Source: Frateuria defendens
GTDB taxonomy: Bacteria > Pseudomonadota > Gammaproteobacteria > Xanthomonadales > Rhodanobacteraceae
Length of the DNA: 42,194 bases
Direction of reading: 5' to 3'
Assembly (NCBI RefSeq): GCF_001182895.1
Contig: NZ_LFQR01000032.1
Coordinates: forward strand, 1 to 42,194
Both the position numbers and the translations under genes were made by a program. The notes under the pieces are model-generated. The model searched no databases. It saw only the letters and a program-made list of their open reading frames with translations, and was not told where the DNA came from. The first letter of the stretch is position 1; every line of letters starts with the position of its first letter. Positions 10,850-41,962 of the stretch are shown in pieces.

Positions 10850-10926
10850 GGCCCCGTGGCACAATTGGATAGCGCGCACCCCTCCTAAGGGTGAGGTTGT
10901 GGGTTCGAACCCCGCCGGGGCCGCCA
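10850..10926 (+). tRNA. tRNA-Arg (anticodon CCT)
   Basis: The gene is 77 nt including an encoded CCA. The acceptor stem GGCCCCG pairs with CGGGGCC. The D-arm contains ATTGGATAGCGC, the anticodon loop CTCCTAA holds CCT at 10884-10886, and the T-arm GTGGGTTCGAACCCCGC is intact. A run of seven T follows at 10927. tRNA-Arg(CCT) is a frequent integration target for genomic islands, which fits its place at the edge of the low-GC region. Confidence 0.97.
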
Positions 10927-32003: not shown

Positions 32004-32032
32004 TTGCGCGGCGCCGCAAATGCCGGCATGAT
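32004..32032 (+). promoter_or_regulatory. Candidate promoter of the arg cluster
   Basis: TTGCGC (32004-32009), a 17-nt spacer and CATGAT (32027-32032) would start RNA near 32039. That puts the hairpin GGTTCC..GGAACC (32036-32054) at or near the 5' end and the leader ORF about 20 nt in. Confidence 0.5.
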
Positions 32033-32057
32033 GCCGGTTCCACTATTCGGAACCCGC

Positions 32058-32162
32058 ATGTCCGCAGCCGTCTATACCGCCACCGTGCTCACCAGCGCCC
32101 GCATGGCCGCTGGCATGACCTCGCGTGCGCGCCGACCGCTGGGCCAGCATCGGGCCGGGTAG
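32058..32162 (+). CDS. Candidate arginine leader peptide ORF
   Basis: A 34-codon ORF ([15 protein letters not shown]..., stop TAG at 32160). Five codons are Arg: codon 15 and codons 23, 25, 26 and 32, the last four close to the stop. Its final bases GGCCGGGT (32153-32160) can pair with ACCCGGCC (32199-32206), the 5' arm of the following terminator. A ribosome finishing the ORF would mask this segment, whereas one stalled at Arg codons 23-26 would leave it free. The ribosome site is weak (CGGAAC). Arg content alone is not statistically striking in such GC-rich DNA; the geometry is the argument. In-frame ATGs at 32103 and 32115 would make a shorter leader. Confidence 0.55.
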
Positions 32163-32194
32163 GCTGTCGCACGCGTTTCACATGCATCGACGAC

Positions 32195-32226
32195 AAAGAC
32201 CCGGCCACCGAGCCGGGTCTTTTCGT
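32195..32226 (+). terminator. Intrinsic terminator/attenuator T1 in the argF leader
   Basis: AGACCCGGC (32197-32205) pairs perfectly with GCCGGGTCT (32212-32220) around a 6-nt loop and runs into TTTTCGTTT. It lies 33 nt after the leader ORF and 150 nt before argF, so it must be bypassed for argF expression from the leader promoter. The competing helix is 32153-32160 with 32199-32206. Confidence 0.85.
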
Positions 32227-32242
32227 TTGGAGTTCCGAATAG

Positions 32243-32297
32243 TTTCAGGCGGATCCATCCGCGAAGGCCGAACCGGCCATCCAGGCCGGACTTTTCA
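32243..32297 (+). other. Leader unit A: hairpin plus terminator-like stem T2
   Basis: GCGGA-TCCA-TCCGC (32249-32262) is followed by CCGGCC-ATCCA-GGCCGG (32273-32289) and ACTTTT. GGCCG (32266-32270) can pair alternatively with CGGCC (32274-32278), which would break the terminator stem. It is the first of two tandem units of similar sequence. Confidence 0.7.
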
Positions 32298-32300
32298 ACG

Positions 32301-32356
32301 TTTCACGCGGGTCCGTCCGCGAAAAGCCAGCCGTCCGTCCATAGCCGGACTTTTTT
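32301..32356 (+). other. Leader unit B: hairpin plus terminator-like stem T3
   Basis: GCGGG-TCCG-TCCGC (32307-32320) is followed by GTCCG..CGGAC (32333-32350) and six T. By eye it aligns with unit A over most of its length, with the same order TTTCA, small hairpin, GAA, GCCGGACTTTT. It ends just before the argF ribosome-binding site. Confidence 0.7.
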
Positions 32357-32377: not shown

Positions 32378-33385
32378 ATGACGCTTCGCCACTTCTTGAC
32401 CACCCAGGACTACAGCCGCGCCGAGATCGACGCGCTGCTGGAGCAGGCCGCGGCCTTCAAGCGTTCGCCGCAGGGGCAGCAGCTGGCCGGCAAGTCGGTG
32501 GCGCTGCTGTTCTTCAACCCCTCCATGCGCACGCGCACCAGCTTCGAGCTGGGCGCGTTCCAACTGGGCGGCCACGCGGTGGTGCTGGCGCCGGGCAAGG
32601 ATGCGTGGCCGATCGAGTTCGAGGTGGGCAGCGTGATGGACGGCGACACCGAGGAGCACATCGCCGAAGTGGCGCGCGTGCTCTCGCGCTACGCGGACCT
32701 GATCGCGGTGCGCGCCTTCCCCAAGTTCCAGGACTGGTCGGTGGACCGCGAGGACAAGGTGATCAAGGCCTTCGCCCAGTACGCCACGGTGCCGGTGATC
32801 AACATGGAGACGATCACCCACCCCTGCCAGGAGCTGGCCCACGCGCTGGCGCTGCGCGAGCACCTTGGCGACCTGCAGAACAAGAAGTACGTGCTGACCT
32901 GGACCTACCACCCCAAGCCGCTCAACACCGCGGTGGCGAACTCCGCGCTGCTGATCGCCACCAAGCTGGGGCTGGACGTGACCCTGCTGTGTCCCACGCC
33001 CGACTACGTGCTGGACGAGCGCTACATGGAGTACGGCTACCAGAACGCGAAGGAGAACGGCGGCTCGCTCACCGTCAGTCACGACATCGAGGAAGCCTAC
33101 CGCGGCGCCGACGTGATCTACGCCAAGAGCTGGGGCGCGCTGCCGTTCTTCGGCAAGTGGGAGCAGGAGAAGCCGATCCGCGACGCGCACAAGCACTTCA
33201 TCGTGGACGAGGCCAAGATGGCGCTGACCAACAACGGCCTCTTCAGCCACTGCCTGCCGCTGCGCCGCAACGTGAAGGCCACCGACGCGGTGATGGATTC
33301 GCCCAACTGCATCGCCATCGACGAGGCCGAGAACCGCCTGCACGTGCAGAAGGCGGTGATGGCCTCGCTGATCGGCCAGCGCTGA
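32378..33385 (+). CDS. argF': N-acetylornithine carbamoyltransferase
   Basis: This 335-aa enzyme transfers carbamoyl phosphate to N-acetyl-L-ornithine, giving N-acetylcitrulline, in place of the usual ornithine reaction. The carbamoyl-phosphate site SMRTR is at 49-53. Glu92 (DTEEHIAE) is the residue known in Xanthomonas AOTCase to set acetylornithine specificity. Glu144 and HPCQ (148-151) are present. WTYHPKPLNTAV (175-186) is an AOTCase hallmark, HCLPLRRNVKATD (291-303) is the C-terminal signature, and Lys300 corresponds to the carboxylated Lys302 of the Xanthomonas enzyme. GAGG at 32363 is the likely ribosome site. It is the first gene of the arg cluster, behind the multi-terminator leader. 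Confidence 0.96.
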   Translation: MTLRHFLTTQDYSRAEIDALLEQAAAFKRSPQGQQLAGKSVALLFFNPSMRTRTSFELGAFQLGGHAVVLAPGKDAWPIEFEVGSVMDGDTEEHIAEVARVLSRYADLIAVRAFPKFQDWSVDREDKVIKAFAQYATVPVINMETITHPCQELAHALALREHLGDLQNKKYVLTWTYHPKPLNTAVANSALLIATKLGLDVTLLCPTPDYVLDERYMEYGYQNAKENGGSLTVSHDIEEAYRGADVIYAKSWGALPFFGKWEQEKPIRDAHKHFIVDEAKMALTNNGLFSHCLPLRRNVKATDAVMDSPNCIAIDEAENRLHVQKAVMASLIGQR

Positions 33386-33393
33386 GCCGCCGC

Positions 33394-34017
33394 ATGGTTC
33401 AGCCCCGCGCCTTCCGCGAGACGCGCCGCGAGGTCCTCGAGGATCTCGTGCGCGCGTACCCGTTCGCCACTGTGGCGGTGCGGACGGCGGACGGCCTCGC
33501 CGCCAACCATCTGCCGCTGGAGCTGGCGGGCGAGGTGCTGCGCGGCCACGTGGCGCGCGGCAACGAGCTGGCGAAGCTGGACGGCGCGCCGGCGCTGGCG
33601 ATCTTCCACGGCCCGGAGGGCTACGTCAGCCCCAACTGGTACCCGAGCAAGCACGAGACCGGGCGCGAGGTGCCGACCTGGAACTACGCGGTGGTGCACG
33701 TGCACGGGCGCCTGCGGGTGGTGGACGACGCGGCCTGGCTGCGCGCCTTTCTGGCGACGCTCACCGAGCGCCACGAAGCGGGCGAGCCGAAGCCCTGGTC
33801 GATCGACGACGCGCCCGCCGACCACGTCGACAAGCTGCTGCGCGCCATCGTCGGCATCGAGATCGCCGTCGAGCGCGTCGAGGGCAAGTTCAAGCTCGGC
33901 CAGAACCACCCGGAGGCCAATCGCCGCGGCGTGATCGCGGGCCTGCAACGCCGCCACCGCGGCGACGACGCGGCGCTGGCCGCGCTGACGGCGCAAACGT
34001 TGGAGGAAGGGATATGA
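33394..34017 (+). CDS. PaiB-type FMN-binding family protein
   Basis: This is a 207-aa protein of the PaiB/FMN-binding split-barrel family, named after a Bacillus regulator. YPFATVAVRTADGLAANHLPLEL, LRGHVARGNELAKL and GYVSPNWYPSKHETGREVPTWNYAVVHVHGRLRVV (about 70-105) are the family signatures, and KFKLGQNHPEANRRGVIAGL ends it. Binding of FMN or haem is inferred. It starts 8 nt after argF and its stop overlaps the osmC-like start by ATGA, so it is co-translated with that gene. Nothing ties it directly to arginine synthesis. Confidence 0.9.
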   Translation: MVQPRAFRETRREVLEDLVRAYPFATVAVRTADGLAANHLPLELAGEVLRGHVARGNELAKLDGAPALAIFHGPEGYVSPNWYPSKHETGREVPTWNYAVVHVHGRLRVVDDAAWLRAFLATLTERHEAGEPKPWSIDDAPADHVDKLLRAIVGIEIAVERVEGKFKLGQNHPEANRRGVIAGLQRRHRGDDAALAALTAQTLEEGI

Positions 34018-34484
34018 GGCCGCACCATTACGCCTTGCAGGTGGCCTGGACGGGCAACCGCGGCACCGGCACCGCCGACTACCGCGCCTATGGCCGCGAG
34101 CACGAAATCCGCGTACCGGGCAAGGCGGTGATCGCCGGCTCGTCCGACCCGACCTTCCGCGGCGACGCCACGAAGCACAATCCCGAGGACCTGCTGGTGG
34201 CGGCGCTGTCCGCCTGCCACATGCTGTCCTACCTGCACCTGGCCGCGGTGGCCGGCGTGGTGGTGACGGCCTACGTGGACGACGCCACCGGCACCATGCA
34301 GACCGCCGCCAGCGGCGGCCGCTTCACCGAAGTGGTGCTGCACCCCACCGTGACCCTCGCCGAGGGCAGCGACGCGGCCCACGCCACCGCGCTGCACGAG
34401 GACGCGCACCACGCCTGCTTCATCGCCCATTCCGTCAATTTCCCGGTGCGCTGCGAGCCGCGCATCGTGACCGAACCTGCCTGA
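34014..34484 (+). CDS. OsmC/Ohr family protein
   Basis: This is a 156-aa member of the OsmC superfamily of thiol-dependent hydroperoxide reductases. Cys68 in LVAALSACHMLSYLH and Cys135 in HHACFIAHS match the two redox cysteines. The N-terminal half forms the typical beta domain (HEIRVPGKAVIAGSSDPTFRGDATKHNPEDLL). Its start overlaps the paiB-like stop (ATGA). Together they look like a redox-related pair inserted between argF and argG. Cytoplasmic. The native peroxide substrate is unknown. Confidence 0.93.
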   Translation: MRPHHYALQVAWTGNRGTGTADYRAYGREHEIRVPGKAVIAGSSDPTFRGDATKHNPEDLLVAALSACHMLSYLHLAAVAGVVVTAYVDDATGTMQTAASGGRFTEVVLHPTVTLAEGSDAAHATALHEDAHHACFIAHSVNFPVRCEPRIVTEPA

Positions 34485-34523: not shown

Positions 34524-35714
34524 ATGAGCAAAGACATCGTCCTCGCCTTCTCCGGCGGCCTCGACACCAGCTTCTGCGTGCCCTACCTGCAGGAGCGCGG
34601 CTGGGCCGTGCACACCGTGTTCGCCGACACCGGCGGCGTGGACGCGGAGGAGCGCGCCACCATCGAGGCGCGCGCCAAGGAACTGGGCGTGGCGAGCCAC
34701 CGCACCGTGGACGGCGGCCCGGCGATCTGGAACGGCTTCGTCAAGCCGTTCGTGTGGGCGGGCGAGGGCTACCAGGGCCAGTACCCGCTGCTGGTGTCCG
34801 ACCGCTACCTGATCGTGGACGCGGCGCTGGCGCGCGCGGCGGAACTGGGCACCCGCGCCATCGCGCACGGCTGCACCGGCATGGGCAACGACCAGGTGCG
34901 CTTCGACCTGGCGGTGAAGGCGCAGGGCAACTACCAGATCGTGGCGCCGATCCGCGAGATCCAGAAGGAGCACACCCAGACCCGCGCCTACGAGCAGGCT
35001 TATCTCGAGGAGCGCGGCTTCGGCGTGCGCGCCAAGCAGAAGAGCTACACCATCAACGAGAACCTGCTGGGCGTGACCATGTCCGGCGGCGAGATCGACC
35101 GCTGGGAGGCGCCGGGCGAGGGCGCCCGCGGCTGGTGCAAGCCGCGCGCCGAATGGCCGGCCGCGCCGCTGCGCGTCACGCTGAGCTTCGAGCAGGGCGA
35201 GGCGGTGGCGCTGGACGGCGAGAAGCTCCCCGGCCACCAGATCCTGGCCAGGCTCAACCAGCTGTTCGCGCCCTACGGCGTGGGCCGCGGCATCTACACC
35301 GGCGACACCGTGATCGGCCTCAAGGGCCGCATCATCTTCGAGGCACCGGGCCTGATCTCGCTGCTGGCCGCGCACCGCGCGCTGGAAGACGCCGTGCTCA
35401 GCAAGCAGCAGAACCGCTTCAAGCCCGAGGTGGCGCGCAAGTGGGTGGAGCTGGTGTACGAGGGCTTCTTCCAGGATCCGCTCAAGACCGACCTGGAAGC
35501 CTTCCTGGCCTCCTCGCAGTCGCAGGTGAACGGCGAGGTGACGCTGGAGACGCAGGGTGGCACGGTGACGGCGGTGGCGGTGGCCTCGCCGCATATCCTC
35601 AACGCCAAGGGCGCCACCTACGCGCAGTCGGCCGACTGGGGCGTGGAGGAGGCCGAGGGCTTCATCAAGCTGTTCGGCATGAGCTCGACGCTGTGGGCCG
35701 AGGTTAATCGTTGA
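34524..35714 (+). CDS. argG: Argininosuccinate synthase
   Basis: ArgG joins citrulline and aspartate with ATP to make argininosuccinate, the penultimate step of arginine synthesis. The PP-loop [12 protein letters not shown] is at 8-19. [13 protein letters not shown] (113-125), with its nucleotide and citrulline contacts, and YQIVAPIRE follow. The 396-aa length is typical of the shorter bacterial type. [17 protein letters not shown] marks the C-terminal domain. AGGA lies 12 nt before the ATG, a rather long spacing. It follows the osmC-like gene by 39 bp. Confidence 0.97.
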
Positions 35715-35901
35715 GGGGCAGGGAGTAGGGAATCGGGCATGGGGATTCGCCACAGCGAAGAGCCTCCCGCCCTTACCTGAGTGAGCCTGCTGCCGCCGCT
35801 TCCCCGCCCAGGCGGGACCGGCGGCTTCAGGCCAGCCGCTTCACGCCACCGCAAGCTACCGGACTCCCGCCGCGCGGGAGCGACGAGACGACAGACCGAC
35901 C

Positions 35902-37008
35902 ATGGCCACGACCGACCTGCTCGCAAACACCCTCGCGCACCTGAAGGAACTGGTGTCCTTCGACACGCGCAACCCGCCGCGCGCGATCACCACCGGCGGC
36001 ATCTTCGACTACCTGCGTGCGCAGCTGCCCGGCTTCGACGTCGCGGTGACCGACTACGGCGCCGGCGCGGTGACGCTGCACGCCGTGCGCGGCAAGCCCA
36101 AGGTGCTGTTCAACGTGCACCTGGACACCGTGCCCGACTCGCCGCACTGGACCCAAAACCCGCACGCGCTGACGGTGACGGCAGACCGCGCCATCGGCCT
36201 CGGCGCCTGCGACATCAAGGGCGCGGCAGCCGCGCTGCTGGCGGTGGCCAACGCCAGCGGCGGCGACCTGGCGCTGCTGTTCTCCACCGACGAGGAGGCC
36301 AACGACGCGCGCTGCATCGCCGGCTTCCTCAAGGACCATCCCGCCTACGAGGCGGTGATCGTGGCCGAGCCCACCCGCGGCGAAGCCGTGCTGGCCCATC
36401 GCGGCATCCTCGCCGTGCAGATGCAGTTCAAGGGCCGCGCCGGGCATGCCTCGGGCGAGCAGCAGCCTTCCGACAGCGCGCTGCACCAGGCGATGCGCTG
36501 GGGCACGGCGGCGCTGGACTACGTGGCGGCGCAGTCGCACCAGCGCTTCGGCGGCCTCACCGGCCTGCGCTTCAACATCGGCAAGATCGAGGGCGGCATC
36601 AAGGCCAACATGATCGCGCCCTCCGCCGAGGTGCGCTTTGGCTTCCGCCCGCTGCCCTCGATGGACCCCGACCAGTTGCTGGAAACCTTCCGCACCCTGG
36701 CCGAACCGCAGCCGGTGGCATTCGCCGCCACCTTCCGCGGCGATTCGCTGCCGGCCGGCGACACCGCCACCGCCGAGGCGCGCCGCCTGGCCGCGCGCGA
36801 CCTGGCCGACGAGCTCGGCATCCCGGTCGGCAACGCGGTGGATTTCTGGACCGAGGCGGCGCTGTTCTCCGCCGCCGGCTACCTCTGCTTCGTCTACGGC
36901 CCCGGCGACATCGCCCAGGCGCACACCGCCGACGAGTGGGTGTCGCTCGACCAGCTCGACCATTACGCACAAACCCTCTACCGGATCGTCAACCGTGCAA
37001 GCTCCTAA
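35902..37008 (+). CDS. argE: Acetylornithine/N-acetylcitrulline deacetylase (M20 family)
   Basis: This is a 368-aa zinc/cobalt M20 hydrolase. In bacteria with AOTCase the physiological substrate is N-acetylcitrulline, releasing citrulline for ArgG; that is inferred from the neighbours. Metal-site motifs appear in order: [12 protein letters not shown] (first His/Asp), [15 protein letters not shown] (bridging Asp), [11 protein letters not shown] (Glu-Glu), VAEPTRGE and a final His in [16 protein letters not shown]. The dimerisation lid domain runs between about 170 and 285. Upstream, 187 bp hold a GGGAGTAGGGAATCGGG repeat and two GC hairpins (about 35808-35834 and 35868-35884). No strong ribosome site precedes the ATG. 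Confidence 0.94.
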
Positions 37009-37012
37009 CAGC

Positions 37013-38311
37013 ATGCGGAAGACCATCGTGCGCCTGCTCTCCAGCATGGGCAGCACGAAGGAAATCCAGCAATACCTCAAGCGCTTCTCCCAGCTCGACG
37101 CCAAGCGCTTCGCCGTGGTCAAGGTCGGCGGCGCGGTGCTGCGCGACGAGCTCAACGACCTCACCTCTTCGCTGACCTTCCTGCAGCAGGTGGGTCTGAC
37201 CCCCATCGTGCTGCACGGCGCCGGCCCGCAGCTGGACGAGGAGCTGGCCGCCGCCGGCATCGAGAAGCGCACCGTGAACGGCCTGCGCGTGACCTCGCCG
37301 CAGGCGCTCGGCATCGTGCGCCGCGTGTTCCTGCAGCAGAACCTCCGGCTGGTCGAGGCGCTGCAGAAGATGGACACGCGTGTCACCTCGCTCACCTCCG
37401 GCGTGCTGATGTCGAGCTACCTCGACCGCGAGGCCTACGGCATGGTGGGCAAGGTGGACCGCATCGACCTGGCGCCGATCGAGGCCAGCCTCGAGGCCGG
37501 CTCGATCCCGGTGATCGCCAGCATGGGCGAGACGGAGGAGGGCCAGCTGCTCAACGTCAACGCCGACTTCGCCGCCAACGAGCTGGTGCGCGTGCTGCAG
37601 CCGTACAAGATCATCTTCCTCACCGGCACCGGCGGCCTGCTCGACGGCGAGGGCAAGGTGATCGACTCGATCAACCTCTCCACCGAGTTCGAGCACCTGA
37701 TGGCGCAGCCGTGGATCAATGGCGGCATGCGGCTGAAGATCGAGCAGATCGCGGACCTGCTGGAGAGCCTGCCGCTCACCTCCTCGGTGTCGATCACGCG
37801 GCCCTCGCAGCTGGCCAAGGAACTGTTCACCCACAAGGGCTCGGGCACCCTGGTGCGCCGGGGCGAGAAGGTGCAGCGCTTCGACAGCTGGGAGGGCGTG
37901 GACCGCGAGCGCATGCGCGGGCTGATCGAGTCGAGCTTCGGCCGCACGCTGCTGGTGGACTACTTCGAGCGCACCACGCCGTACCGCGTGTACGTGAGCG
38001 AGAACTACCGCGCCGCGATGGTCCTCACCGAGGAAGACGGGCTCACCTACCTCGACAAGTTCGCCGTGCTCGACGACGCGCAGGGCGAGGGCCTGGGCCG
38101 CGCGGTGTGGCAGATCATGCGGCAGGAGAACCCGCGGTTGTTCTGGCGCTCGCGCCACGGCAACCAAGTCAACCATTTCTATTACGCCGAGTCGGACGGC
38201 TGCTACAAGCAGGAGCGCTGGAAGGTGTTCTGGTACGGCATCGCCGATTTCGCCACCATCGAGCGCTGCGTCGCGCATTGCAGCGTGCGGCAGCCGACGC
38301 TGGTGGGCTGA
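37013..38311 (+). CDS. argB/argA: Fused N-acetylglutamate kinase / N-acetylglutamate synthase
   Basis: This is a 432-aa bifunctional protein. Residues about 1-290 are an amino-acid kinase domain ([60 protein letters not shown]) that phosphorylates N-acetylglutamate. Residues about 290-432 are a GNAT acetyltransferase domain ([35 protein letters not shown] with the acetyl-CoA loop). This is the vertebrate-like NAGS/K architecture described in Xanthomonas and known to be arginine-inhibited. Both first steps are thus on one chain. The ATG is 4 nt after argE; a GTG at 36995 is an overlapping alternative start. Confidence 0.95.
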
Positions 38312-38355
38312 CGGGGTGCGCGGCACGCTTGCGTACTTCCGGCCGCAGCTTCGCT

Positions 38356-38440
38356 CTGTAGGAGCGCGCCTTGCGCGCGACCGCGGGGTTACGGCGTTGC
38401 CGCTGTGTAGGCTTGTCGCGCGCAAGGCACGCTCCTACAG
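38356..38440. repeat. Inverted REP pair (BIME-like)
   Basis: CTGTAGGAGCGCGCCTTGCG.. (38356-38381) faces ..CAAGGCACGCTCCTACAG (38415-38440). The arms are 26 bp and differ at one position, with a 33-bp spacer. It lies between argB/A and argC and could form a large hairpin in the mRNA, changing the levels of the downstream genes. A diverged pair is at 2437. Confidence 0.85.
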
Positions 38441-38526
38441 AGATGCAGCAGGGCTGTGGTGCCTCGCCGGGTCGTGAACAGGCGCCATGAGCGGTGATTG
38501 AAAGTCTTCGTGTGGGAATATCACGT

Positions 38527-39492
38527 ATGAACCAACCCAAGAAAACCATCGGCATCGTCGGCGCGCGCGGCCACACCGGCGCCGAGCTGATCCGCCTGAT
38601 CGCGGCGCATCCGGCGCTCGAACTCACCTTCGTCTCCTCACGCGAGCTGGACGGCCAGCGCGTGGCCGAGCACAACGACGCCTACGCGGGCGAGCTGCGC
38701 TACGAGAGCCTCGACCCCGAGGCGGTGGCCGCCAGGCATGCCGACGTGGTGATTCTGGCCCTGCCCAACGGCAAGGCGGCGCCCTACGTGGAGGCGCTGG
38801 ACAAGGCCGCGCCGGACACGCTGCTGCTCGACCTCTCCGCCGACTACCGCTTCGACGAGCGCTGGTACTACGGCCTGCCGGAGCTCACCCGCGGCAAGTG
38901 GCGCGGCGAGAGGAAGATCAGCAACCCTGGCTGCTACGCCACCGCCGTGCAGCTCTCCATCGCGCCGCTGAAAGACCTCTTGGCCGCGCCGCCGGTGAGC
39001 TTCGGCGTGTCGGGCTACTCCGGCGCGGGCACCACACCCTCGGACAAGAACGACCCGGAGAAGCTGCGCGACAACCTGATGCCGTACTCGCTCACCGGCC
39101 ACACGCACGAGAAGGAGGCGAGCCGGCATCTGGGCATCCCGGTGGAGTTCATGCCGCACGTGGCGCCGCATTTCCGTGGCCTCACCGTCACCACCAACCT
39201 GTACCTGTCCAGGCCGCTCAAGCGCGAGGAGGTGCTGGAGCGTTTCCGCCGGGCCTACGCCGGCGAGAAGCTGGTGCGCGTGCTGGACGAGGCGCCATGG
39301 GTGAGCCGCATCGCGCACCGGCACCATGCCGAGATCGGCGGCTTCGCGCTGTCGGCCGACGGCAAGCGCGTGGTGGTGGTCGCCACCCTGGACAACCTGC
39401 TCAAGGGCGCCGCCACCCAGGCCATCCAGAACATCAACCGCGCCATTGGCGTGGACGAATACACCGCCATTCCTGTGCCGACGAACGACTGA
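38527..39492 (+). CDS. argC: N-acetyl-gamma-glutamyl-phosphate reductase
   Basis: This 321-aa NADPH-dependent enzyme reduces N-acetylglutamyl phosphate to the semialdehyde. The Rossmann start [18 protein letters not shown] (8-25) and the catalytic Cys in [12 protein letters not shown] are clear. The conserved His is in [17 protein letters not shown]. The C-terminal [20 protein letters not shown] is the family end. The ATG at 38527 gives the normal N-terminus. It is separated from argB/A by 215 bp containing the REP pair, so it may have its own promoter there. Confidence 0.96.
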
Positions 39493-39506
39493 AGAGGGGA
39501 GAGAGC

Positions 39507-40655
39507 ATGATGGGGAACGAGACGGGCAAGGCCCGATGTAAGCGCGGCCGCCTCGGCCGCTGGATGACCGCCGCCTGCGCGCTGGCCGCCTTCGCCGCGG
39601 CGCCGGCCTTCGCCGCCGAGGCGAAGACCGCCAAGCCGTGGCCGGTCAAGGTGGTGATCGTCACCACCTTCGAGATCGGCGCCGACACCGGCGACCGCCC
39701 CGGCGAGTTCCAGCCGTGGGTGGAGAACGAGCACCTCGACCAGGTGCTGGATTTCCCCGGCGGCGTGCACCCGCTGCGCACCAACGCCAGCCACGACGTG
39801 CTCGGCGTGGTCACCGGCATGACCCTGGTGAACGCGGGCACCTCGCTGATGGCGCTGGGCACCGACCCGCGCTTCGACCTCAGCCACGCCTACTGGATCA
39901 TCAACGGCATCGCCGGCGTCGACCCGCAGGACGCCTCCATCGGCTCCGCCGCCTGGGCCAAGTACGCCATCAACGATGTCTCGCGCCTGATCGACCCGAG
40001 CGAGGCGCCGGCCGGCTGGCCCTACGGCTTCTTCCCCAATGACACCTCGGCGCCCAACCAGCGCCCGAAGCAGGTGCACGTCGCCAACTGCTACCCGCTC
40101 AACGCCACGCTCACCGAGTGGGCCTATGGCCGCACCAAGGACCTCAAGCTGCCCGATACGCCGCTGATGGCCGAGATCCGCGGCCGCTGGAAGGGCTACC
40201 CCAACGCGCAGAAGCCGCCGTTCGTGCTGGTCGGCGACAGTTTCGCCAGCGACTACTTCTGGCACGGCAAGGTGCTCAACGGCTTCGCCAACGACTGGGT
40301 CAAGCTGTGGACCTCCGGCCACGGCAACTTCGTGATGACCGAGATGGAAGACTCGGCCATGCTGGAGGCGCTGCAGCGCCTGGACCGCATGCACCGCGTC
40401 GACCTCGACCGCGTGATGCTGCTGCGTGCGGCCTCCAACTACAGCATGCCCGCGCCAGGCATGGACATCGTCGAGAGCATCACCGACACGCACTGGGAGC
40501 CGATGGTGTTCCGCTCCGCCTGGGCCGCCGGCAGCCCGGTGGTGCACGAGCTGACCGCGCACTGGCCGCAGTATGCCGACCACCTCCCGGGCGGCCCCGC
40601 GCACGCGGAGGAGACCGAGTACTGCCACTACCGGCCGCAACCCTCATCCCACTGA
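39507..40655 (+). CDS. Purine nucleoside permease-like (NUP) exported protein
   Basis: This is a 382-aa protein of the NUP family (PF06516), named after a Candida permease but resembling nucleoside phosphorylases in sequence. It has a signal peptide ([19 protein letters not shown]), so the mature protein is periplasmic. [71 protein letters not shown] and [15 protein letters not shown] follow. The last contains the Met-Glu-Asp pattern seen in phosphorylases. A strong AGGGGAG site precedes the ATG. It sits between argC and argH with short gaps and so is probably co-transcribed, although no link to arginine is known. Confidence 0.92.
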
Positions 40656-40666
40656 GTATTCCGACG

Positions 40667-41962
40667 ATGTCCCAACTTCTCTGGCAAAAGGCCGGCGTCG
40701 AGACCAACGCCAAGATCATGCAGTTCCTCGCCGGCGACGACGTGGTGCTGGACCGCGAGTTCTTCCTGCACGACATCGCCGCCAGCAAGGCGCACGTGGA
40801 GGGCCTGGCCAACATCGGCGTGGTGAGCGGCGGGGAAGCCGCTGCGCTCAAGCGCGAGCTGGACGTGCTGGCGGAGGATTTCCGCGCCGGCGCCTTCGTG
40901 CTCGACGAGCGCTACGAGGACGGCCACTCCGCCATCGAGGCGCGCCTCACCGAGCGCCTGGGCGACGCCGGCCGCCGCGTGCATACCGGGCGCAGCCGCA
41001 ACGACCAGATCCTGGTCGCCACGCGGCTGTGGCTGAAGGAGAAGCTGGCGGAGCTGGAAGGCTATTGCCGCGCCATCGCCCAGGTCGCGCTGGAGCGTGC
41101 CGCGCAGCCGGCACTGCCGTTGCCGGGCTACACCCACCTGCAGCGCGCGGTGGTGTCCTCCACCGCGATGTGGTTCGCCGGCTTCGCGGAAGGCTTCGTC
41201 GACAACACCCTGCGGGCGCGGCAGACCGCGGCGCTGATCGACGCCAACCCGCTCGGCACCGCCGCCGGCTACGGCGTCAACCTGAAGCTCGACCGCGAGC
41301 ACACCACCGCCGCGCTCGGTTTCGCGCGCATGCAGGTGTCGCCGATCTACGCCCAGCTCTCGCGCGGCAAGTTCGAGATGGCGGTGCTGGAGGCCATCGC
41401 TGCGGCACTGCTGGACACGCGCCGGCTGGCCTGGGACCTCTCGCTGTTCACCACCGCCGAGTTCGACTTCGTGAAGCTGCCGGCCGAGTACACCACCGGC
41501 AGCTCGATCATGCCGAACAAGCGCAACCCGGACGTGGTGGAGTTGCTGCGTGCGAGCTACGCCACGGTGGCCGCCGCGCGCACCGAGATCGAGCAGCTGC
41601 TGTCGCTGCCTTCGGGCTACCAGCGTGACCTGCAGTTCACCAAGGGCTCGCTGTTCCATGGCGTGCGCCAGGGCCTGATGGCGCTGGCCCTGGTGCCGGA
41701 CCTGCTGGCGCGGATGCAGTGGAACGAGGGCGCGATGCGCGCGGCCATCGAGCCGGCCATGTACGCCACCGACGTGGCCATCGAGCAGGCCGCGGCGGGC
41801 GTGCCGTTCCGCGACGCCTACCGCGCCGCGGCCGAGGCGGCCGCGTCCGCCGGCGCCGGCCGCACACCGGAGGGCAGCCTGGCTGCGCGCGTGTCGCCGG
41901 GTGCGGGTTACGACTTGCGCCTGGATGCGCTGCAGCAGCGGCTTGACGGGTTGGGCGGCTGA
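40667..41962 (+). CDS. argH: Argininosuccinate lyase
   Basis: ArgH splits argininosuccinate to arginine and fumarate, the last step of the pathway. The 431-aa protein belongs to the fumarase/aspartase superfamily. HTGRSRNDQ (about 105-113) and GYTHLQRA (about 155-162) carry substrate and His residues. [12 protein letters not shown] (about 280-291) is the superfamily signature with its catalytic Ser loop. The C-terminal half has the expected helices. It starts 11 nt after the permease-like gene. At 431 aa it is slightly shorter than E. coli ArgH (457), mainly at the N-terminus, as in other Xanthomonadales. Confidence 0.96.

Follow-up and report, generated by a model that had tools for sequence, protein, structure and literature searches.

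The window, i.e. the whole stretch of 42,194 nucleotides analysed here, belongs to the 4.19-Mb draft genome of Frateuria defendens and contains a cluster of co-oriented arginine-synthesis genes, in which the carbamoyltransferase gene argF'—its product being up to 94% identical at the amino acid level to that of Dyella—is followed by argG, an argE-like gene, a gene for a fused NAG kinase/synthase, argC and argH (34524-41962; Table 1). Two ORFs separate argF' from argG (~33394-34484) and another one lies in the argC-argH gap (~39507-40655); these three look foreign to arginine synthesis, being, as judged by eye, FMN-binding/PaiB-like, OsmC-like and nucleoside-permease-like. A tRNA-Arg with the anticodon CCT (for AGG) is located elsewhere in the window, at 10850-10926.

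Upstream of argF' there is a short leader. Its 34-codon ORF was found exactly where the first-pass annotation, made from the sequence of the window, had placed it, and the perfect complementarity claimed there between the end of this ORF (strand 2) and the 5' arm of an intrinsic terminator (strand 3) was confirmed as well. The terminator itself, T1, was also borne out, its stem consisting of 11 perfect base pairs (32195-32205/32212-32222) with a 6-nt loop, followed by the T run. As for the Arg codons, the four listed earlier—23, 25, 26 and 32—are all present, but the ORF contains five of them, codon 15 (CGC, 32100-32102) having been missed. The leader stretch of the window folds 4.4 s.d. better than its dinucleotide shuffles.

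Table 1 Features of the leader and the arginine cluster in the window
Feature	Position	Strand	Details and basis
Candidate promoter	32004-32032	+	-35 TTGCGC (32004-32009), 17-nt spacer, -10 CATGAT (32027-32032); sequence and conservation
Probable leader-ORF Shine-Dalgarno site, GGAA	32049-32052	+	Sequence; conservation of GGA
Leader ORF, 34 codons	32058-32162	+	ATG 32058, stop TAG 32160-32162; sequence and relatives
Invariant codon block MTSRARR, codons 20-26	32115-32135	+	Arg 23 CGT, Arg 25 CGC, Arg 26 CGA
Strand 2, putative antiterminator 5' arm	32153-32160	+	GGCCGGGT, overlaps the stop codon; complementarity, relatives
Putative antiterminator loop with inner GTCG/CGAC helix	32162-32193	+	Folds; alignment A1
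Strand 3, 5' arm of terminator T1	32195-32205	+	32199-32206, ACCCGGCC, complementary to strand 2
Strand 4, 3' arm of T1 (32212-32222), and T run	32212-32226	+	Sequence
argF' (ornithine/acetylornithine carbamoyltransferase family), first gene of the cluster	32378-33385	+	Pfam PF02729, PF00185
argG	34524-35714	+	ORFs, Pfam domains; start by eye
argE-like (M20 peptidase family)	35902-37008	+	ORFs, Pfam domains; start by eye
Fused NAG kinase/synthase	~37013-38311	+	ORFs, Pfam domains; start by eye
argC	~38527-39492	+	ORFs, Pfam domains; start by eye
argH	~40667-41962	+	ORFs, Pfam domains; start by eye

Leaders upstream of argF' in the order

The families of the order were numbered f1-f12. An argF' match was obtained in 196 of the 200 genomes sampled from the order, and upstream DNA was taken for 99 of these 196, hand-picked for spread among the matches listed. 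Together with the window and 80 named close relatives—mostly Dyella, Rhodanobacter, Frateuria and Luteibacter as well as MAGs—they make 180 loci, of which 137 belong to f1-f4 (100, 27, 3 and 7, respectively) and 43 to f5-f11. It should be pointed out that the 137 loci represent 103 distinct blocks, that many of those from f1 are close relatives and that the named and unnamed sets partly overlap; the counts are therefore those of loci and not of independent events. One locus (L099), from a duplicate genome and lying further upstream, was left out, and another one (L012), situated at a contig edge with adapter-like sequence, was not included in the counts of promoters and Shine-Dalgarno sites or in the test of the 12-bp repeat described below.

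A leader with MTSRARR precedes argF' in all 137 loci from f1-f4 (100/100, 27/27, 3/3 and 7/7), the frame of the ORF and its Arg codons, which the first-pass annotation had proposed to check in relatives, thus being kept throughout. Among the close relatives, the MTSRARR frame with its stop is found in the 80 named loci, L012 being cut within the leader by the contig end, and in 79 of 81 loci the start is 34 codons away from the stop (35 codons in L076, the other exception being the truncated L012). A pattern search placed T1 after the stop in 80 of 81 close loci, the window included, and in the remaining one (L034) a variant form was recognized by eye. The candidate promoter is backed by conservation, the form TTGnnn-17-CATnAT being present in 79 of 80 close loci including the window; a sigma-70 promoter scan did not score this candidate (0 promoters). 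An SD-like GGA was seen before the leader start in 64 of the same 80 loci.

The pattern of degenerate MTSRARR codons occurs once per genome in 31 of 41 relatives, i.e. in all those sampled from f1-f4, and is absent from the ten genomes from f5-f12 among them. In a class-wide sample, it was found in the three genomes that belong to the order but not in any of the other 271, and the control with the pattern reversed gave 0 matches.

Concerning f5-f11, MTSRARR is present in none of the 43 loci. The leaders of f5 and f7-f11 differ in their peptides, yet they are rich in arginine, e.g. MTAHVHFPAQLKAPVIQAALRRRRRLSQRRAG (L133), MKNVMGNSIFPGRRARRTRRPLLAG (L138) and MKSNQQQAGKYQNAVNASVVARRLRRSKFMPGCKTL (L159), so that outside f1-f4 the Arg cluster has remained but the peptide has not. 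An ORF ending near the terminator and having at least three Arg in eight residues was found in 35 of the 37 scored loci from these families, and one with at least four in 29, the reverse-strand control giving 10 of 37 at either cut. Of the two failures, L140 had been scored with another hairpin as the terminator and L171 is without such an ORF. The locus L157 is too short for this scoring.

A hairpin with a T run was called in 175 of the 180 loci, the calls being unreliable for L140, L157 and ten f1 loci. Counting against an attenuator, the search gave no terminator for L134 (f6), nor for L164, L165, L170 and L172 (f10); these five have argF' with neither a terminator nor a clear Arg leader, yet ArgR was found in f12 alone. 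No such leader was seen in L187-L189 either, which also counts against an attenuator; these are weak carbamoyltransferase matches from f8, f5 and f9, and they may be other genes of the carbamoyltransferase family.

Pairing, spacing and folding of the putative antiterminator

The sequences of strand 2 and of the terminator arm facing it differ from family to family: GGCCGGGT/ACCCGGCC in f1, GCTGGGT/ACCCAGC in f2, f5, f7 and much of f8, GCTGGGC/GCCCAGC in f11 and TGCCAGG/CCTGGCA in f9. Compared with shuffled spacers, the complementarity is better at p<=0.05 in 87/100 loci of f1, 17/27 of f2, 3/3 of f5, 2/2 of f7 and 1/1 of f11, in 4/7 of f9 and 4/9 of f10, and in 7/15 of f8, counted without L157, the complement of which is an artefact of the contig end. 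It is no better than in shuffled spacers in f3 (0/3) and f4 (0/7 at p<=0.05), a result counting against an attenuator, as do the incomplete scores of f8, f9 and f10.

The relation between both strands was evaluated by swapping the arms, with strand 2 being located solely through its spacing to the Arg codons. This test was used instead of a 134-locus alignment set, discarded as biased because its members had been selected by complementarity; in alignment A1 (77 sequences, L037 and one member of every identical pair being excluded), strands 2 and 3 of the close relatives are too uniform for counting pairs. The test covered 127 of the 137 loci, ten from f1 being dropped since the hairpin chosen in them lies before or too near the leader and is apparently the terminator of the upstream gene. 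With its own arm, the mean perfect complement is 6.94 nt in f1 (n=90) and 6.56 nt in f2 (n=27), whereas arms swapped between f1 and f2 give 4.13 and 4.10 nt; 0 of 300 permutations reached the observed mean. The own-arm complement is weak in f3 (5.00) and f4 (4.43). Judged from these comparisons of strands, the covariation that the first-pass annotation had asked about does hold between families, with f3 and f4 as its weak points. Within the antiterminator loop, the GTCG and GAC columns are invariant in A1. For an upstream hairpin (codons -6 to -1), the RNAalifold consensus over the 103 distinct rows is weak, although single sequences fold.

Spacing was measured wherever the complement is 6 nt or longer. 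From the end of the Arg pair to strand 2 there are 17 or 18 nt in 88/90 loci of f1, 24/25 of f2 and 3/3 of f3. For f5 and f7-f11, the distance is 8-18 nt in 20 of 24 loci, f5 and f7 having 14-16 nt and four of five f9 loci 8-10 nt; the values are scattered in f4, f8 and f10. These distances place strand 2 roughly where a ribosome whose A site holds the final Arg codon would end.

In folding calculations with strand 2 free and strand 4 not yet made, the antiterminator is dominant in 90/90 f1 and 26/26 f2 leaders. As soon as strand 4 is available, T1 has the greater stability in the window even with strand 2 free; this counts against an attenuator, and the switching would therefore have to be kinetic, as is generally held for attenuators of this type. 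In folds calculated without a ribosome as far as strand 3, the antiterminator prevails in 82/90 f1 but 11/26 f2 leaders, so that a classical 1:2 protector is unclear, which also counts against an attenuator, and untranslated f1 leaders may read through.

In trp/his-type attenuation, a ribosome stalled at scarce codons frees a strand with which an antiterminator can form. In the leader described here, transcription would start near 32039 and a ribosome would translate the 34 codons behind the RNA polymerase. With enough charged tRNA-Arg, it would pass codons 23, 25 and 26 and reach the UAG at 32160, where it would cover strand 2; strand 3 would then pair with strand 4 and T1 would end transcription. 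With charged tRNA-Arg being scarce, the ribosome would stall at codons 23-26, its footprint ending just short of strand 2 (17 nt from codon 26), and strand 2 would capture strand 3 before strand 4 has been synthesized, allowing the polymerase to enter argF' and the cluster; the read-through would presumably serve the whole operon.

The leader is thus very probably a ribosome-mediated, arginine-specific transcription attenuator sensing charged tRNA-Arg, by which, instead of by the usual repressor ArgR, the arginine-synthesis genes of the soil bacterium F. defendens and of most sampled members of the order appear to be switched. The attenuator reading of the first-pass annotation has gained support from the comparative tests, i.e. 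from the ORF, the Arg codons, the covariation of the antiterminator and the absence of ArgR. That annotation had also called the Arg enrichment modest in this DNA; we agree that in the window alone it is not convincing, the comparative data being what convinces.

Constraint on the leader peptide and its arginine codons

Across f1-f4, the seven codons of MTSRARR have a pN of 0 and a pS of 0.29, and the five codons directly after them have a pN/pS of 1.08, corresponding to neutral drift. All six variable sites in this 21-nt block (137 loci) are at third codon positions, with Thr using four codons, Ala three and Ser being TCG in 135 of 137 loci. As read from the sequence comparison, this is the pattern of a coding frame. 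The Arg codons proposed earlier as the signal are not all alike: 23, 25 and 26 are constrained, but the place of 32 drifts freely, and 12/137 loci have Tyr, Trp, Asp or Ala instead of Arg 15, the one missed at first, which is therefore not essential. The Met, Thr, Ser and Ala of the block are as invariant as its Arg residues (137/137), which counts against a sensor based on codons only; codon sensing alone does not explain these fixed non-Arg residues.

The choice of Arg codons is also restricted. Codon 26 is CGA in 134/137 loci, although CGA accounts for 0/121 of the Arg codons in the arg genes of the window, and for 1.6% in argF' of f1. In f1-f4, CGG, AGA and AGG are absent from the three core Arg positions (0/411) versus ~12% of 1431 Arg codons in argF' of 80 f1 loci. 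In the remaining families, with 18 argF' genes as the background, the same three codons make up 0/27 of the Arg-cluster codons in six leaders from f9 versus 26/44 in five f9 argF' genes, and 5/129 in 29 leaders of f5, f7, f8, f10 and f11 versus 83/260 in 13 argF' genes. The leader Arg codons are thus almost exclusively CGU, CGC and CGA, i.e. those of tRNA-Arg(ICG). A bias so unlike that of argF' in the same genomes points to the reading of one isoacceptor and suggests that it is the charging of tRNA-Arg(ICG) that the leader reads.

The invariance of the peptide at all of its seven positions, the confinement of variable sites to third codon positions and the almost fixed CGA would also suit a sensor residing in the peptide itself, with nascent MTSRARR, by itself or together with a metabolite, causing the ribosome to pause or arrest from within the exit tunnel and the Arg codons being only part of the signal. 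The leaders of f5 and f7-f11, however, retain the Arg cluster and the terminator without MTSRARR, and an arrest induced by arginine would be expected to free strand 2 and switch the synthesis on when arginine is plentiful, i.e. with the wrong sign; we consider this explanation unlikely. Returning to the attenuator that senses charged tRNA-Arg, a tentative extension, to which we would give a slightly better chance, is that in the four families the peptide, codons and RNA form the sensor jointly: ArgR would have been replaced at the base of the order-level lineage by a switch responding to the charging of tRNA-Arg(ICG), in which nascent MTSRAR and a slow CGA, usually then followed by CCG, park the ribosome 17-18 nt before the antiterminator. 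Such a joint sensor would be unlike attenuators of the codon-only type.

Among known systems, the attenuators of the trp, his, leu, thr, phe and ilv operons share with this leader the general scheme, i.e. an ORF with cognate codons, mutually exclusive antiterminator and terminator, and a biosynthetic operon downstream. The leader described here differs in that its cognate amino acid is arginine, its peptide is conserved beyond Arg in four families, its antiterminator strand overlaps the stop codon and no clear 1:2 protector is seen in f1. A 2004 study by Vitreschak is reportedly associated with the attenuators of proteobacterial amino-acid operons. The fungal arginine attenuator peptide is likewise encoded by a small upstream ORF reacting to arginine, but it acts by eukaryotic translational arrest at high arginine, without a terminator. 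The closest case in the open-access literature surveyed is orf34 of Salmonella speF, also of 34 codons, in which pausing at consecutive Arg codons at low arginine refolds the downstream RNA; speF, however, makes putrescine, and the outcome concerns stability by RNase G and Rho termination, with no intrinsic terminator before arginine-synthesis genes (accessible part of PMC6386406). In Pseudomonas aeruginosa, carAB has a leader peptide and a suspected attenuation before a gene feeding arginine synthesis, but the attenuation is ascribed to pyrimidines and arginine acts at transcription (accessible part of PMC4997734). No arginine-cognate attenuator before arginine-synthesis genes was found in the accessible parts of the open-access literature, to which the survey was confined, and none is mentioned in the available parts of PMC2965389 and PMC5343134.

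Distribution of ArgR and the relation to Xoo5

The first-pass annotation had also proposed to look for ArgR in the genome. Neither PF01316 nor PF02863 was found in F. defendens, the controls being positive, and ArgR was not detected in 191 of the 199 other genomes of the order. The N-terminal domain PF01316 is present in 8 of the 200 genomes, all of them from f12 (E. coli and B. subtilis were among the positive controls), and PF02863, in 1 of the 13 genomes given, the one from f12, agrees with it. The ninth f12 genome, which is 77% complete, has neither an ArgR nor a PF02729 match. It should be noted that the absence of ArgR refers to ArgR of the PF01316/PF02863 type, the AraC-type ArgR of Pseudomonas being of another kind.

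In all eight f12 genomes with ArgR, argR is divergent from a carbamoyltransferase gene ~1.2 kb away, according to the match positions. Four of these loci (L183-L186) were inspected by eye: argR faces an argD-like gene, argF comes directly after it and there is no leader. The argR-argD gap holds the paired palindromes GCATAATATGC and GYATNTTATGC, which we take to resemble ARG boxes, and a run of five T was not found in this gap in any of the four loci. With ArgR confined to f12 and the leader found elsewhere, the repressor and the attenuator therefore seem to substitute for each other; neither of the two is present at the f6 locus or in part of f10. The probable attenuator is found through most of the sampled order, complementary to ArgR. 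It is of a kind already known, from which the invariant peptide may set it apart.

A relaxed Rfam search matched RF02242 (Xoo5, 'Xanthomonadaceae sRNA') over 32072-32170 of the window in full length (1-124) with 25.6 bits and an E-value of 0.003; this score being below the 50-bit gathering threshold, the window has an orthologous locus rather than a formal member of the family, and at the gathering threshold only a tRNA was matched in the window. Of 15 leaders compared with RF02242, nine match, eight of them above the gathering score. The nine are all the f2 leaders tried (9/9), with 40-144 bits on the leader ORF, because of which f2 is taken as Xanthomonadaceae; none of the six leaders from f3-f9 matched at E 0.1. 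Xoo5 was verified in X. oryzae by Northern blot and 5' RACE between PXO_00354 and PXO_00353 as a discrete RNA of ~100-130 nt, with two forms in early growth and the short one alone later, PXO_00353 being N-acetylornithine carbamoyltransferase and PXO_00352 argininosuccinate synthase (accessible part of PMC3039613). In the text of that paper, none of 'arginine', 'ornithine' and 'argF' was found as a word start, and its accessible part has no link of Xoo5 to arginine control.

By sequence, then, the Xanthomonas ortholog of the leader is Xoo5, lying directly before argF'. The RF02242 model, with its 124 positions as long as the RACE-mapped RNA, starts two bases before the leader AUG (L103-L122, f2), so that in Xanthomonas translation of the leader may be nearly leaderless, unlike in f1. 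The two RNAs are orthologous, but Xoo5 has been filed as an sRNA and its model ends before T1. The 3' end given for Xoo5 also lies before T1, and this counts against an attenuator.

The discrete RNA of X. oryzae with its early and late forms, described in the part of the paper cited above, and its place among the sRNAs of Rfam are what a trans-acting small RNA would lead one to expect, its position before argF' being then secondary. What is conserved, however, is a coding frame with constrained residues in front of argF' in every one of the f1-f4 loci, and the terminator arm co-varies with a leader strand; the two roles would moreover be compatible with each other. As the main function, a trans-acting role thus seems improbable. 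That T1 is the ordinary terminator of an independent small-protein gene, with argF' having its own promoter downstream, is scarcely credible: more than 100 bases do separate T1 from argF' in some loci (143 in L005, by coordinates) and the ORF is conserved as a protein, but no curated family was matched by the leader peptides tried (three in NCBIfam and two in Pfam), and the co-varying helix of strands 2 and 3 as well as the Arg spacing would be left without a role.

If the attenuator reading is true, it explains how most of the order, to which Xanthomonas belongs, can regulate arginine synthesis without ArgR, and the orphan Rfam 'sRNA' family Xoo5 gains a function. The presence of ArgR in one family and of the attenuator in others would then be a natural case of a repressor replaced by RNA control, and the invariant MTSRARR lets one ask directly if the leader peptides of attenuators act through codons alone.

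Several further elements were noticed around the leader. A perfect 12-nt inverted repeat (32042-32053/32232-32243) joins the region of the leader Shine-Dalgarno site with the DNA just after T1; its pairing as a part of the switch was rejected, the other loci being near the shuffled expectation, so the repeat seems peculiar to the F. defendens genome. A mobile element was rejected, too, with one full-length match in the own genome, a second match of 28 bases and no plasmid match. Between T1 and argF', at 32242-32355, a 42-nt sequence is directly repeated in two imperfect copies that have hairpins and tails rich in T. The motif CCGGCCATCCANGGCCGGACT has 14 matches in the own genome at up to three mismatches, two of them overlapping, versus one for the reversed control, and represents a dispersed repeat.
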